From NCBI GenBank assembly GCA_023375675.1, contig JALQBC010000007.1, positions 620,001 to 684,000 on the forward strand: a DNA stretch of 64,000 nt. The letters are read 5' to 3'. Each line of letters starts with the position of its first letter. Within the stretch, counting starts at the first letter, position 1. This DNA is from Cytospora piceicola (lineage: Eukaryota > Ascomycota > Sordariomycetes > Diaporthales > Cytosporaceae). Position numbers and translations under genes: made by a program. Under the pieces are notes generated by a model that saw only the letters and a list, made by a program, of their open reading frames with translations, had not been told where the DNA came from and searched no databases. Positions 22,617 through 64,000 of the stretch are shown piece after piece.

Positions 22617-24766
22617 TTACGACAGACCCAGTCCAACTGGTCCATTGGGTTCGTGCCCATTGACAGCCGGCGGCTCCTGTCCTACAAGGTACCTGAAGTC
22701 CAGTCCAACCTCGGAAAGCACCTGGGCATGGGTCTTAGCCCGTTCCATGCACTTGGTCCACGCCTCGTTCCCATGCTCAGTGCTGCTGAGCTGCCGCGCC
22801 AGGATGATGTTGAAGGCCTCGACCTCGTCCTTGGCCCATTTGACACAGGCACTCATCATCGGCGGCGGGAAGCAGCCTTGGAAGCAGCTGACCGTGTTCT
22901 TGATTATGGTGAAGTAGACAAGTGACAACTGCCAGATGTACAGGTGGAGGTCTCCCTGGAAAATGCATTGGCTGAGTTGATTGTTAGGTTCCGTCCATCT
23001 TCAATTATGCGTGTTGTTGGAGGGGGGGGGGGGGGGGGAGAAGGGGGTTTTACTCACCGAGAGCGTTTCTGAATAATACCACTCCTTGCTTCCAGGAATG
23101 TCTCCCTCGCCTGGTCCTCAAAGCCAAGCCGAGTGAGCCAGCTAACGTTCAGCCTGTTCTTGCTTGCTTCATCGTGCGTGTTTCTGAGCTCGCGTGTGAT
23201 CAGACCGGCCAAGCGCGAGCATCTCTCCTCCACCTTGAACTCGATGAAGTCTTGTGCGACCACGTTGTTTCTGAGACTGCGAGCCAGGCCCTTCAACTGC
23301 TCCACCCTGGCCACAGACGGCTCAATTCGCTGCAGCGCGATATCGATGTCAAGCTCGTCCATCTGACCTTCGACCCAGCGAAGGTTTTGCTGTTTCCCAT
23401 CCACCTCGATGAGCATGTCCTTGATATCGGACAGGGTCTCGAGGAGCTCCGTCTTCTGCAGCAGTCCCGGATCTCTGGATGCAAAGTAGTTGATGGTCTC
23501 CTTGGCCTTATTATTCGCCTCTCTCTCGGACTGGATATTCCTCCGGAGGTCCTCCACTACTTTGCGAACGTTGATGATCAAGCTTCGCTTTTCAGGGTCA
23601 TCGATCTTCTCCGTCCGGTAGATAACAGACTCTTGGCCCACACCGCGGACCATGATAGCGTCTGCAAGCTTGGTCCTGCTGCTGGATGATTCGTGGGTCC
23701 CTGCCATGTCCACGACTTCAATATCAAGCAATGGCCAGCAACGGTCAGCCACAAGCTTGACTGCTGGGCCTCGAGCTTCCGGGTTGTCCGTCTTCCTCTT
23801 CTTGCGGGATGCAATCAGCAGATGGTCGTTCAGGAGGACGATTTTCATGGAGCGTCTGGACTTGTACGTGGCATTGTCTAGCTCAATCCAAGAACCTGCG
23901 TCCTGAACAATGTGACGACCCTGAAAGTTGGGCAAGAACTTCTGAGTACCCTCAATCATCTTGTAGAGAGTCTGCATCTGTGAGTTCCACAGAGCTGCTC
24001 TGTCCACTATGGAGCTGCGCTTGTCCTTTTTGCTCATGCCTTGGTTGAAGGAACCGCCCTTCATCCCCTCAGACTCCTCGTTCCGGAAAGACGCCGACCG
24101 CAGCACCGTTGTGTTCGTCTTGAGCTCTGACATCAGGTTCTTCAGGCTTCGCATCTCCTCCTTGAGCTTCTCCGCCTCTTTGCTGATCTTGATGAACTGG
24201 GTCCTGTTCTGATAGACATTCTGCTGTAGGTCGCTCGCGGCCCGGACCTTCAGCTTCTGCAACTGTTCCTCGAACTCGGGTATCTCGTCCTCGGTAGCAT
24301 TGGCCAATGCATTGGTAACGTACGCATCCGGGTTGATTCTTGGATCCCTCAGGGCCCTGACATCAAGGGTGGGGGCAACACCCGGGATTCCTGCAGGAGG
24401 CTTTGGCAAGTCTGCTGTTTGTTTCCGATAGGGCGCGTACTTGTCAAGTGCTGGCATGGTCGGGATGGGAGGCGCAGCCGTGACATCGAAGTTGTCCGGT
24501 AGGTTGTATCGTGTAGAGTATCGACGCTTCACATAGTCGGACGTCTTGCCTCCTGCCTGAGGGGGCTGCCGAGAGCGAGGAGTCGGTCCACCAGCCGCGG
24601 TCTTCGCCCCTCCAGTGCTTCTTGGGACGGCTGGTGCTCCATCATTGCTGGCGATGTGCTCTAGGATCTGGCGGGGAGCGCTGATGATTGGGCGGGCTTT
24701 CCTCCTGGTGCCAGAACGGAGGGATATCCCCCTCCTCGCTGGCTCTTTCGGTGGCTCTTCCGACAT
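22617..24766 (-). CDS. exo84: Exocyst complex component Exo84
   Basis: Two exons, complement(22617-22971, 23058-24766), give 687 residues. The N-terminus is basic and Pro-rich (about 1-110). A Vps51/Exo84 coiled-coil segment follows (EIPEFEEQLQKLKVRAASDL, SKEAEKLKEEMRSLKNLMSEL), then a PH domain (LNDHLLIASRKK, DRCWPLLDIEVVDM) and a C-terminal helical CATCHR-like region. The last 118 residues lie in exon 2. Exo84 is one of the eight exocyst subunits that tether secretory vesicles to the plasma membrane at the hyphal tip. The intron contains an unusually long G17 run at 23022-23038. The gene is divergent from tom20, from which it is separated by about 450 bp. Confidence 0.93.
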
Positions 24767-25217
24767 CCTTTGATTGCAGAAGGCAAAAGAGCTAACGGTG
24801 GTTGGGGTGTATCACGATGTAGGAACATCAAAAGATGTCTTGAGATGGGATGGAATGGAATGGTTGAGGGGAGGAGTACGCTCCTTGGTGTTCGCAGACG
24901 TGTTTCGAGGCAGGGCACGAACCAGGATGGGCTTACTTACTTTCACTCGGCCCCCTGTCCCTATGATGCGGTACGTACCCGTTGCTAGACCAAAAAAATT
25001 GAAGGCACGGGCTCTTTTTTTAGATACCAAGTCAAGCTGATTCCTAACTGCAAAAGAGGAGCGCATCGCAAGCCACGCCCACCCCTCTACAATACTGTAC
25101 TCTGCTTTGCATCAGACTCGTTGAATTTAGGGCCAGGACACAGCCGTCGTCTTTCCCTCGCGAACTTCCTTCCAGCTGTTCCTTTCCATCCCCCACAATC
25201 CCCCTCGCGCAACGACA
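24767..25217. promoter_or_regulatory. Divergent promoter, exo84/tom20
   Basis: A 451-bp stretch between two start codons on opposite strands must hold both promoters. No specific binding site was recognised. Confidence 0.5.
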
Positions 25218-58927: not shown

Positions 58928-60445
58928 TAAGCCTGTGCGGCAGCCAGAGGGGTTGGCTCACTATAACACCAATTGTCAGCAATGAGAACATCTTTCGACC
59001 AGTCAAGGTTTCACTTACACTCCAACACGCTCCTTCGCCAGAAGGTCAATCATGAGCTGAGAAGGTCGGTTGTCCTTGTACACATTCTGGCTCTCCTTGA
59101 ACAGCTTCACGCTGGCCAAGTACCGGTCAAACAGGAAGGAGCTGTCCATGGGGCCGCCCTTGGCCTCAGGGTGGAACTGCGTAGAGAAGATAGGGCGAGT
59201 CTTGTGCATCATTCCCTCGTTGCTTCCGTCGTTGAGGTTGACGAAGTACTCCTTGAAGTCGGGGTGGAGAGTGCTGGCATCAACAGCGTAACCGTGGTTC
59301 TGGCTCGTGATGTGGCACTGGCCAGTGGTCAAGTCCAGGGCAGGGATGTTGTGAGCACGGTTGCCGTACTTCATCTTGATGGTGCTCGCACCAGTCGCCA
59401 GGGCCAGCAGCTGGTGGCCAAGGCAAATGCCCATAACTGGGACCGGGGAGGTCTCGATCAGACGGGCGAGGTTGTAGATGGTGTCCTGGCAGTGGGTCGG
59501 GTCACCAGGGCCGTTGGAGATGAAGACACCGTCGAAGTCGGCGGCAACCTTGTGGACCGGGAAGTCGTAAGGGAGCACCGTCACAGCCGCTCCTCGGCTG
59601 ATCAAGCTTCGAAGGATGTTCTCCTTGACTCCGCAGTCAAGCAGGGCAACGTGGAAGGTCGCGTTGGGCGCCGAGACAACGAAAGGAGCCTTGGTGCTCA
59701 CTTTCTTGACGAGGTTGATCTGGGCAGGGTCCAAGAAGCTCTCATCTTCGTCGGCATCGTACTCGTCGCCAATGGAGATCCTAGCCAAAGAGGAACCCTG
59801 CTCGCGGAGGTGGGTGACGATAGCACGGGTGTCAACGCCAGAGATGGCGGGCACACCCTCACGAGCACACCACTCTCCCAGGCCCTCGACAGCAGTCCAG
59901 TGGCTGTACTGCTTGGCGAAGTCGGACACGACAATTCCGGCACACTGAATGTGGGGAGACTCGAAGTATTTCAGGAGCTTGTACTCGTCACGGACGTTGG
60001 AGGGGACGCCGTAGTTTCCGATCAGAGGCTGGGTGAAGACCAGGATCTGGCCACGGTAGGAGGGATCGGTCATGGACTCGGGGTATCCAACCAGGGAGGT
60101 GGTGAAGACGGCCTCTCCTGAGATGTTGGAGTTGGCACCGAAGGCGGTACCGTGGAAAACGGGACCATCCTAGCTGAAGGTTAGCACGCATGATCTGACT
60201 TGGAACCTTTCCAGCTCAGCTGTGGAGGAGGACAAGCATACCCGGATGGTGAAGGTGGCATCAAGGTTGTCCACGGGAGCAGTAGCCCTCGACCTCTGGA
60301 CGGGCATTGCCCTTCCCTTGCTGCCATCAAAAGCCTGCTTGCTCACGAATCGCGCCTGGCCAGCCAAAGGCCGGAACCGGGAGGCCATGCCTGCGGCACC
60401 AGTGGCCGAGGACTTAGAGGCTGCAACGAAAACGCGAGAAAACAT
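58928..60445 (-). CDS. arg-2: Carbamoyl-phosphate synthase, arginine-specific small subunit (glutaminase)
   Basis: Three exons, complement(58928-58961, 59019-60169, 60242-60445), give 462 residues. The first about 60 residues are rich in Arg, Ser and Ala and lack acids: a mitochondrial presequence, as in Neurospora ARG-2. The CPSase small-chain domain follows ([21 protein letters not shown]), then a class I glutamine amidotransferase domain with the nucleophile Cys in [14 protein letters not shown] and the His/Glu pair in [13 protein letters not shown]. It supplies ammonia from glutamine to the large subunit for arginine synthesis. The leader carries a 24-codon arginine attenuator uORF, so translation should fall when arginine is abundant, and Gcn4/CPC-1-type sites nearby suggest general amino-acid control. 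The last 11 codons sit in their own exon. Confidence 0.96.
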
Positions 60446-62181: not shown

Positions 62182-62189
62182 AAAAAAAA
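62182..62189 (-). terminator. RNA polymerase III T-run terminator of U6
   Basis: Eight consecutive T on the minus strand directly follow the conserved U6 3' end. Confidence 0.8.
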
Positions 62190-62397
62190 TTGGTAGCTTC
62201 TCTTTGATTGAGCGTGTCATCCTTAGTGCAGGGGCCATGCTACTGTGAGATTTGTCAGTATTCGGACTGACTTGAACTCTCGACCTTGGTAGCGGAACCT
62301 ACATCTTCTCTGTATCGTTTCAAATTGACCCTTGTAGAATATTAGTAATTGTAACCAGACGCGTTACGGTTGAGCCAACTTACAAATGCCCGAAGGC
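62182..62397 (-). ncRNA. U6 spliceosomal snRNA gene with two introns
   Basis: Read on the minus strand, three pieces join into a canonical fungal U6. Piece 1 (62397-62384) is the 5' stem-loop GCCTTCGGGC plus ATTT. Piece 2 (62330-62303) carries GGTCAATTTGAAACG and the ACAGAGA box followed by AGAT. Piece 3 (62242 to about 62190) starts TAGCATGGCCCCTGC, contains the AGC triad and internal stem-loop, and runs into a T8 terminator at 62189-62182. The pieces are separated by GT-AG introns of 53 nt (62383-62331; donor GTAAGT, branch TACTAAT) and 60 nt (62302-62243; donor GTAGGT, branch TACTGAC). Joined, the sequence across both junctions matches S. pombe U6 (TTTGGTCAA and GAAGATTAGCATGG). A TATA-like GGTATAAG lies about 27 bp upstream. 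Confidence 0.94.
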
Positions 62398-62420
62398 AAA
62401 GTAGATTGGCAAACACCCGC

Positions 62421-62428
62421 TTATACCT
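62421..62428 (-). promoter_or_regulatory. TATA-like element of the U6 gene
   Basis: GGTATAAG on the minus strand begins about 27-30 bp before the predicted first U6 nucleotide, the usual position for Pol III U6 TATA boxes. A B-box-like GAGTTCAAGTC lies within the second intron at about 62268-62278, which is compatible with internal promoter use. Confidence 0.6.
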
Positions 62429-63130: not shown

Positions 63131-64000
63131 TTAGATAGCACCCAGCTCCTTGAGCTTCGACACGAGGCCGCCCACATCCTCGACCTTGCCACCGCCCTGT
63201 CGTGGTGCCGGCTCTGTTGACAAAAACGTCAGTATCATCGCCATCATCTCTCTCTTTTCAAAGGCAACTTTGACCGTTCCTCCAGGAGGAAATATTATAG
63301 TAGAAGGCATGGGGGGGGGGGAGGTCGAAATGAGGCCAAGAAATGTGCCGGGCAGACCTACCAGTAACCTTCAGCACCTTCAGCCTCCTCTCGGCCGTGA
63401 CCCCAAAGTCGGCCAGCGTCTTCTTGCTCATGGGCTTCTTCTTCGCCTTCATGATGTTGGGCAGGCTGGCGTACCGGGGCTCGTTCAGCCGCAGGTCCGT
63501 CGTCACCACCATGGGCAGCCGCGCCCGCACCGTCTCCACGCCCCCGTCCACCTCCTTGGTGACGCTGACGAGGTCCCCCTCGCCGAACTCGACCCGGCTC
63601 GCCTGCGTCGCCTGCGCCCACCCCAGCAGCCCCGCCAGCATCTGGCCCGTCTGGTTCGCGTCGTCGTCGATGCTCTGCTTGCCCAGGATCACCAGGTTGC
63701 TCCCCTCCTCCTCCACCGCCCGCCGCAGCAGCTTGGCCACCGCCAGCGGCTCCAGGTCCTCCCCCTCCTTGACGTCCACGTGGATCGCCCGGTCCGCGCC
63801 CATGGCCATGGCCGTCCGGAGCACGTCCTGCGCCTTGGGCGGGCCCGCGCTGATGACGCAGATGTCCTCCACCCCGCCGGGCGCCCTCTTCTTGTCGCGG
63901 ATCCGCACCGACTCCTCCACCGAGAGCTCGTCGAACGGGTTCATGCTGTGCTTGACGCCGGCCGTCTCGACGCCCGTCTGGGCCTTGTTGACGCGGGGTT
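63131..64000 (-). CDS. Electron transfer flavoprotein beta subunit, C-terminal part
   Basis: The gene continues beyond the right edge. Visible exons are complement(63131-63213) and complement(63362->64000). The protein shows the ETF-beta signature [16 protein letters not shown], the AMP/FAD-binding region [18 protein letters not shown], and [17 protein letters not shown]. It also has the diagnostic [27 protein letters not shown] recognition region (here in two parts, [13 protein letters not shown] and [10 protein letters not shown]). The spliced tail is [20 protein letters not shown]. With ETF alpha it forms a mitochondrial matrix heterodimer that passes electrons from acyl-CoA dehydrogenases to ETF-ubiquinone oxidoreductase; yeast Cir1 is the counterpart. 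A G11 run lies in the intron at about 63311-63321. The N-terminus is outside the window. Confidence 0.94.

Follow-up and report, generated by a model that had tools for sequence, protein, structure and literature searches.

A U6 snRNA gene with two introns that carry candidate Pol III promoter boxes, and an uninterrupted second U6 copy, in the genome of Cytospora piceicola

The 64-kb stretch of Cytospora piceicola DNA analysed here (hereafter the window) contains near its end a gene for U6 snRNA, which is read from the minus strand between 62398 and 62182 and is divided into three exons of 15, 28 and 53 nt by two introns of 53 and 60 nt. A U6 gene interrupted by two spliceosomal introns had been proposed for this place in a preliminary description, and the sequence bears this out with respect to the covariance model match, the GT-AG ends and the branch sites; the end at 62182 has remained the same, while the start has moved by one base from 62397 to 62398. 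Even in its unspliced form, the locus passes the gathering cut-off of the Rfam U6 model RF00026 (44 bits), with a match at 62353-62185 on the minus strand covering model positions 1-105 (55.9 bits, E 2.2e-11), which is the sole above-gathering match in the window. The alignment treats intron 2 as an insertion and puts the 5' stem of the model onto sequence of intron 1; the true U6 5' stem-loop, TGCC-TTCG-GGCA, is located at 62398-62387. The features of the locus, all on the minus strand, are as follows.

62420..62425, minus strand: TATA element TATAAG, its first base at -27 from exon 1
62384..62398, minus strand: U6 exon 1, the 5' stem-loop TGCC-TTCG-GGCA followed by TTT, with a junction that matches the uninterrupted paralog
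62331..62383, minus strand: intron 1, 53 nt, GTAAGT...ACAAG, delimited by splice signals
62366..62377, minus strand: A box TGGCTCAACCGT in intron 1, at +22, 11.6 bits with the own-genome tRNA weight matrix
62341..62347, minus strand: branch site TACTAAT of intron 1, position derived from the intron sequence
62303..62330, minus strand: U6 exon 2, GGTCAATTTGAAACGATACAGAGAAGAT, within the RF00026 match
62243..62302, minus strand: intron 2, 60 nt, GTAGGT...CACAG, separating AGAGAAGAT from TAGC, delimited by splice signals
62268..62278, minus strand: B box AGTTCAAGTCA in intron 2, at +121, 8.9 bits with the own-genome tRNA weight matrix
62254..62260, minus strand: branch site TACTGAC of intron 2, position derived from the intron sequence
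62190..62242, minus strand: U6 exon 3 with the AGC triad, the internal stem-loop and the 3' tail, within the RF00026 match
62182..62189, minus strand: terminator T8, preceded in the transcribed part by T runs of at most 3

The joined exons contain the 5' stem-loop, the ACAGAGA, the AGC triad and the internal stem-loop sequence, they read ...GGGCATTTGGTCAATTTGAAACGATACAGAGAAGATTAGCATGGCC... with the conserved core restored, and AGAGAAGATTAGC is kept exactly. Moreover, both exon junctions align without gaps with the uninterrupted U6 paralog of the same genome, in agreement with the earlier statement that removal of the introns restores U6. The intron positions are likewise those given before, and the exact exon pieces agree with them: the first intron sits after the 5' stem-loop and the second divides AGAGAAGAT from TAGC, in the segment that pairs with U2 and U4. 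Both introns combine a GTRNGT 5' end with a CTRAY branch motif, from whose last base it is 10 or 11 nt to the end of the intron, in agreement with the two branch points proposed earlier, TACTAAT and TACTGAC. Among the 7838 GT..AG stretches of 50-65 nt on both strands of the window, only 44 (0.56%) show GTRNGT together with a YTRAY motif near the end. The two introns have the marks of the U2 type, namely GT-AG ends, a fungal branch site and a mature RNA that is restored by their removal.

The comparisons of U6 loci reported below were made within the own genome; four scans of viral and prokaryote contigs with exact U6 patterns gave no matches. Regarding the neighbourhood, an arginine-specific carbamoyl-phosphate synthase small chain is encoded at 59018-60445 on the minus strand, in a gene that has one intron. 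A piece of 352 residues of this protein is, among the best 120 of 7998 matches, 96% identical to proteins of Cytospora mali and C. leucostoma, 93-94% to Diaporthe proteins and 98% to one protein of the source 'lgn', which marks the host as Cytospora-like within the Diaporthales. The open reading frame at 63258-63944 on the minus strand resembles, by eye, the beta subunit of an electron-transfer flavoprotein.

The two introns contain candidate internal boxes of a tRNA-type Pol III promoter, one half in each. The weight matrices for the A and B boxes were built from 13 distinct tRNA sequences of the same genome, which come from 22 loci judged nuclear among 30 fetched out of 58 tRNA matches; eight loci on contig C65 were excluded as probably mitochondrial, a judgement made by AT-rich flanks and density only. 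With 11.6 bits, the A box of intron 1 scores like the own tRNAs (11.0-17.0 bits) and is equalled or exceeded at 10 positions on the two strands of the window; the B box of intron 2 has 8.9 bits, lies slightly under all 13 tRNAs (9.4-17.4 bits) and is equalled or exceeded at 21 window positions. An A box followed by a B box at these scores and 30-150 bp apart occurs only once on both strands of the 64 kb, in the right order, on the right strand and with one box in each intron. Among 5000 single-base shuffles of each intron, 0.12% reached the observed score for the A box and 0.96% that for the B box. Splicing removes both boxes, and the best scores left in the joined sequence are 3.3 bits for A and -0.6 bits for B. 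As controls, seven U1/U2/U4 loci reached at best 1.5-7.6 bits for A and 0.8-3.6 bits for B, the U5 locus 3.4 and 4.1 bits, and the intron of a U1 paralog -3.0 and 3.4 bits. In the U6 gene, the start of the A box and the GTTC of the B box are 100 bp apart, versus 43-58 bp in the 13 tRNAs.

The TATA element at -27 fits that of the 5S genes, of which 15 of 47 loci were inspected: 13 of the 15 have it at -28 to -31, while it is absent in two. The TATA of the SRP RNA gene, which is a Pol III gene elsewhere, was counted by eye at -28; here the A box scores 8.4 bits and the best B box only 5.7 bits at +428. Hence, with no strong B box at the SRP RNA gene, such boxes are not a constant feature of the small Pol III RNA genes of this genome. 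The TATA-like positions 5' of tRNAs are variable and were not used for comparison. An intronic B box, a TATA near -27 and a T-run terminator, the marks of a promoter of the S. pombe type, are all present at the split U6 gene.

These features point to a mechanism in which TFIIIC would bind to the A box of intron 1 and the B box of intron 2 and, together with TFIIIB positioned on the TATA at -27, would recruit Pol III, which would read through both introns and stop at T8. The precursor would then be spliced by pre-existing spliceosomes, whereby the boxes would disappear and a mature U6 would be released in which the conserved core is exact. Such a gene would keep its introns because transcription needs them, and its mature RNA need not encode promoter boxes. 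Since the loss of either intron would mean the loss of one promoter half, the arrangement can explain why the introns are retained. With a probability of roughly three in four, the split locus appears to be a working Pol III U6 gene, in which the introns are needed for transcription and splicing is needed for function. We infer on sequence grounds that it is transcribed, that it depends on TFIIIC, that its RNA is spliced and that it supplies most of the U6.

The genome search gave one other U6 match, at 24720-24818 on the minus strand of contig C63 (L001/L003), which is uninterrupted, full length, scores 84.8 bits and has a T9. The count of two U6 copies refers to 47 of 2118 candidates that were scored, and a search with exons 2-3 also gave two loci, although a more interrupted copy could escape. 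The existence of this copy bears on two earlier statements. That the RNA must itself be spliced may hold for the split copy, but the genome also has an uninterrupted U6. It had further been said that a second, uninterrupted and expressed U6 gene, with no spliced transcript from the split locus, would make the latter a pseudogene; of this, the uninterrupted gene has been found. The C63 copy reads AAACAATACAGAGAAAATTAGC at the place of AAACGATACAGAGAAGATTAGC in the split gene, and its second change is a G>A in the conserved AAGAUUAGC core segment at a strongly conserved (capital) letter of the Rfam consensus. All four U2 copies retain GAUCAAG, with no change matching the G>A.

Between -400 and +700 of the C63 copy no strict A or B pattern is found; three loose A-pattern matches, one on the own strand at +299 and two on the opposite strand at +51 and +333, were set aside. 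The best B-like site by weight matrix within 600 bp lies at +309 (8.5 bits) and lacks the TTC core, and the third best is GGTTCAAGTGG at +406 (6.9 bits). In budding yeast the U6 gene has a downstream B box, and a distant one may also serve the C63 copy. Upstream, a TATA is found at -61, counted from the A after the pyrimidine tract, all 25 letters before the start are pyrimidines, and GCGGAAGGCGGCC is present in exact form at -138, as it is at U1 and at one U2. Moreover, TTTT and TTTTT lie between the TATA and the RNA, which is awkward for Pol III. The upstream region suggests a Pol II promoter of the snRNA type, and by eye there is no clear Sm site. As to marks of a retro-insertion at the C63 copy, a direct-repeat search gave no convincing target-site duplication.

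A similar arrangement characterizes other snRNA genes of this genome. At each of the eight U1/U2/U4 loci, a TATA-like element lies between -52 and -61 and 20-25 of the 25 letters before the start are pyrimidines, and the C63 copy shares the TATA position and the tract with this class. The rule is weakened by exceptions. The only U5 locus found (L013, G000:C5:513104-513215, minus strand) lacks the pyrimidine tract and has its TATA at -28, and at the RNase P RNA gene (L071, G000:C56:58353-58740, minus strand), which is a Pol III gene elsewhere, a pyrimidine tract resembling that of the U1/U2/U4 genes ends by eye 37 nt above the model start. Another U5 gene, perhaps interrupted by introns, may have escaped detection.

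The motif GCGGAAGGCGGCC has seven exact copies in the genome, versus two for the pattern read backwards as a control. Three of the seven are found at U1, at one U2 and at the C63 U6, and of the other four, by eye, three look coding and one is ambiguous. Of 11 small-RNA loci, four match at least 11 of its 13 letters, and two others, one of which is the split U6 gene (shuffle P 0.017), match 10 of 13, with nothing above chance at five. With copies outside snRNA genes and five loci that do not have it, the motif supports the class and does not define it, and its role as an snRNA-only element was rejected. A further stretch, AAGGCGGCC, is common to the region upstream of the TATA of U1, two U2 and one U3 gene (L014, L007, L009 and L055); it is possibly a fungal snRNA upstream element.

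Besides U6, an intron was seen among the snRNA genes here only in a U1 paralog (L015, G000:C16:47152-47309, minus strand), which scores 28.4 bits versus 52.6 bits for the main U1, both under the cut-off of 69.5 bits. It reads ATACTT, a 61-nt GTATGT..CTAAC..TAG stretch and then ACCTTGTC. The candidate intron lies between ATACTT and ACCTTG, and the joined flanks equal the 5' end of the main U1; hence, judged by these signals, a spliceosomal-type intron is predicted inside the sequence of the U1 paralog that recognises 5' splice sites. The paralog differs from the main U1 in 19 of 134 columns. Among 40 pairs of the predicted structure, 36 are unchanged, two are changed on one side, two on both sides and none is broken; the absence of broken pairs is partly built in, because RNAalifold predicted the structure from the same two sequences, and hence it is the two changes on both sides that give real support. 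Divergent copies are also found for U2 (one of four loci) and U4 (one of two, 43.7 bits and under the cut-off), in addition to U1 (one of two, both under the cut-off) and U6. The divergent U2 and U4 copies (L010 and L012) keep the TATA-like element and the pyrimidine tract. By eye, the divergent U4 copy is altered in the stretch that pairs with U6. A parallel divergent spliceosome was considered and is not supported, since by eye the U6 variant has no changes matching those of the U2 or U4 variants.

How the two U6 copies relate to each other can be read in different ways. It is possible, though rather doubtful, that both work, the split gene being transcribed by Pol III and the C63 copy giving a minor U6 variant from a Pol II promoter of the snRNA type; this is compatible with the split locus being the working Pol III gene, and the odds of the two overlap. 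Such a division would fit the TATA at -61, the 25/25 pyrimidines and the exact GCGGAAGGCGGCC at -138, the similar TATA position and tract at the eight U1/U2/U4 loci and the two T runs between the C63 TATA and the RNA. However, the C63 copy has a T9, no clear Sm site by eye and the B-like GGTTCAAGTGG at +406; moreover, the U5 locus breaks the class rule, the RNase P RNA gene shows a pyrimidine tract too, and the split U6 itself matches the upstream motif at 10/13 letters. The B-like site at +406 lowers the odds both for a Pol II-type C63 copy and for the view that the genome holds two U6 genes whose transcription follows different principles, which we regard as unlikely; in that view, the split gene, read by Pol III, would have its whole internal promoter in the two introns, one box in each, and the other would be an uninterrupted, core-altered variant of the Pol II type. 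Intron loss would silence a split-type U6 unless an outside promoter was gained, and hence a C63-type copy could be a spliced-out survivor, rescued by capturing a promoter of the U1/U2 type.

The introns might also be ordinary ones, with A and B boxes present by chance and transcription depending on the TATA or on an unseen element. The boxes are indeed short and the B box is weak, and U6 upstream stretches have reportedly served for guide-RNA expression in T. reesei, in Nodulisporium and in A. niger. Nevertheless, this explanation is improbable, because no other A-B pair of such strength and spacing exists in the 64 kb, because this pair is in order, on the right strand and divided over the introns, and because the shuffled introns so seldom match its scores; furthermore, according to a table in PMC9518982, the U6 promoter that one group employed in T. 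reesei came 'with 1st intron'. It is more improbable still that the C63 copy serves as the working U6 while the split gene is silent or a decaying relic: full length, 84.8 bits, T9, an upstream region ordered as in the U1/U2/U4 genes and the B-like site at +406 (6.9 bits) speak for the C63 copy, but in the split gene the core is exact, the splice signals are intact and the boxes, the TATA and the T8 are in place, while C63 carries the G>A in AAGAUUAGC to which none of the four U2 copies, all with GAUCAAG, has a matching change. The split gene, with AGAGAAGATTAGC exact and with TATA, A box, B box and T8 in place, is thus favoured as the main U6 over the C63 copy with its G>A and no strict boxes.

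The persistence of introns in the RNA of the spliceosome itself is an old puzzle. If the introns hold the promoter, their loss stops transcription, which would be a direct and testable reason for their retention. Should a U6 variant of the Pol II type prove to be expressed, it would be an exception to the rule that Pol III makes U6. Furthermore, U6-based guide-RNA cassettes in such fungi might need the introns.

Among known systems, the SNR6 gene of S. cerevisiae has a TATA at about -30, an A box at about +21 and a B box that is needed, and the split gene resembles it in the TATA and A-box positions and in having a B box; however, the A box lies within the RNA and the B box past the terminator in SNR6, whereas both are intronic here. 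Basidiomycetes of Rhodotorula/Rhodosporidium have introns in the U6, U1, U2 and U5 genes, and thus share with the present case several introns per snRNA gene and introns in snRNAs other than U6, but the host here is an ascomycete, in which besides U6 only a U1 paralog shows an intron. U6 is by rule a Pol III RNA, as stated in the abstract of PMC10484740. According to a passage of the same paper, which also cites Tani & Ohshima 1989, the U6 gene of S. pombe is interrupted by an mRNA-type intron close to its catalytic nucleotides, and a reference title listed there (Frendewey 1990) names a B-box match within Schizosaccharomyces U6 introns. C. piceicola resembles S. pombe in both respects, but has two introns, the A box in the 5' one and, hence, both internal boxes in introns. 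The fungal U6 gene often has multiple introns according to a statement in PMC7827515 citing Canzler 2016 (RNA Biol 13:119), so that spliceosomal introns in U6, sometimes several per gene, are already in print; the preliminary description had noted U6 introns in S. pombe and several other fungi. The entry in the table of PMC9518982, 'U6 snRNA promoter with 1st intron', which refers to guide-RNA work by Bodie et al. (2021), shows that the U6 gene of a further sordariomycete has one intron or more, carried along as part of the promoter; hence, a promoter element in the first U6 intron may already have been recognised in the T. reesei work. A literature search of limited coverage, over titles and abstract openings, gave no A box in a U6 intron and no fungal U6 of the Pol II type, which is weak evidence for the novelty of both. 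Collectively, the introns of the C. piceicola U6 gene are of a kind known from fungi, while the sharing of a candidate internal promoter between the two introns, and the promoter style of the second copy, may be new.
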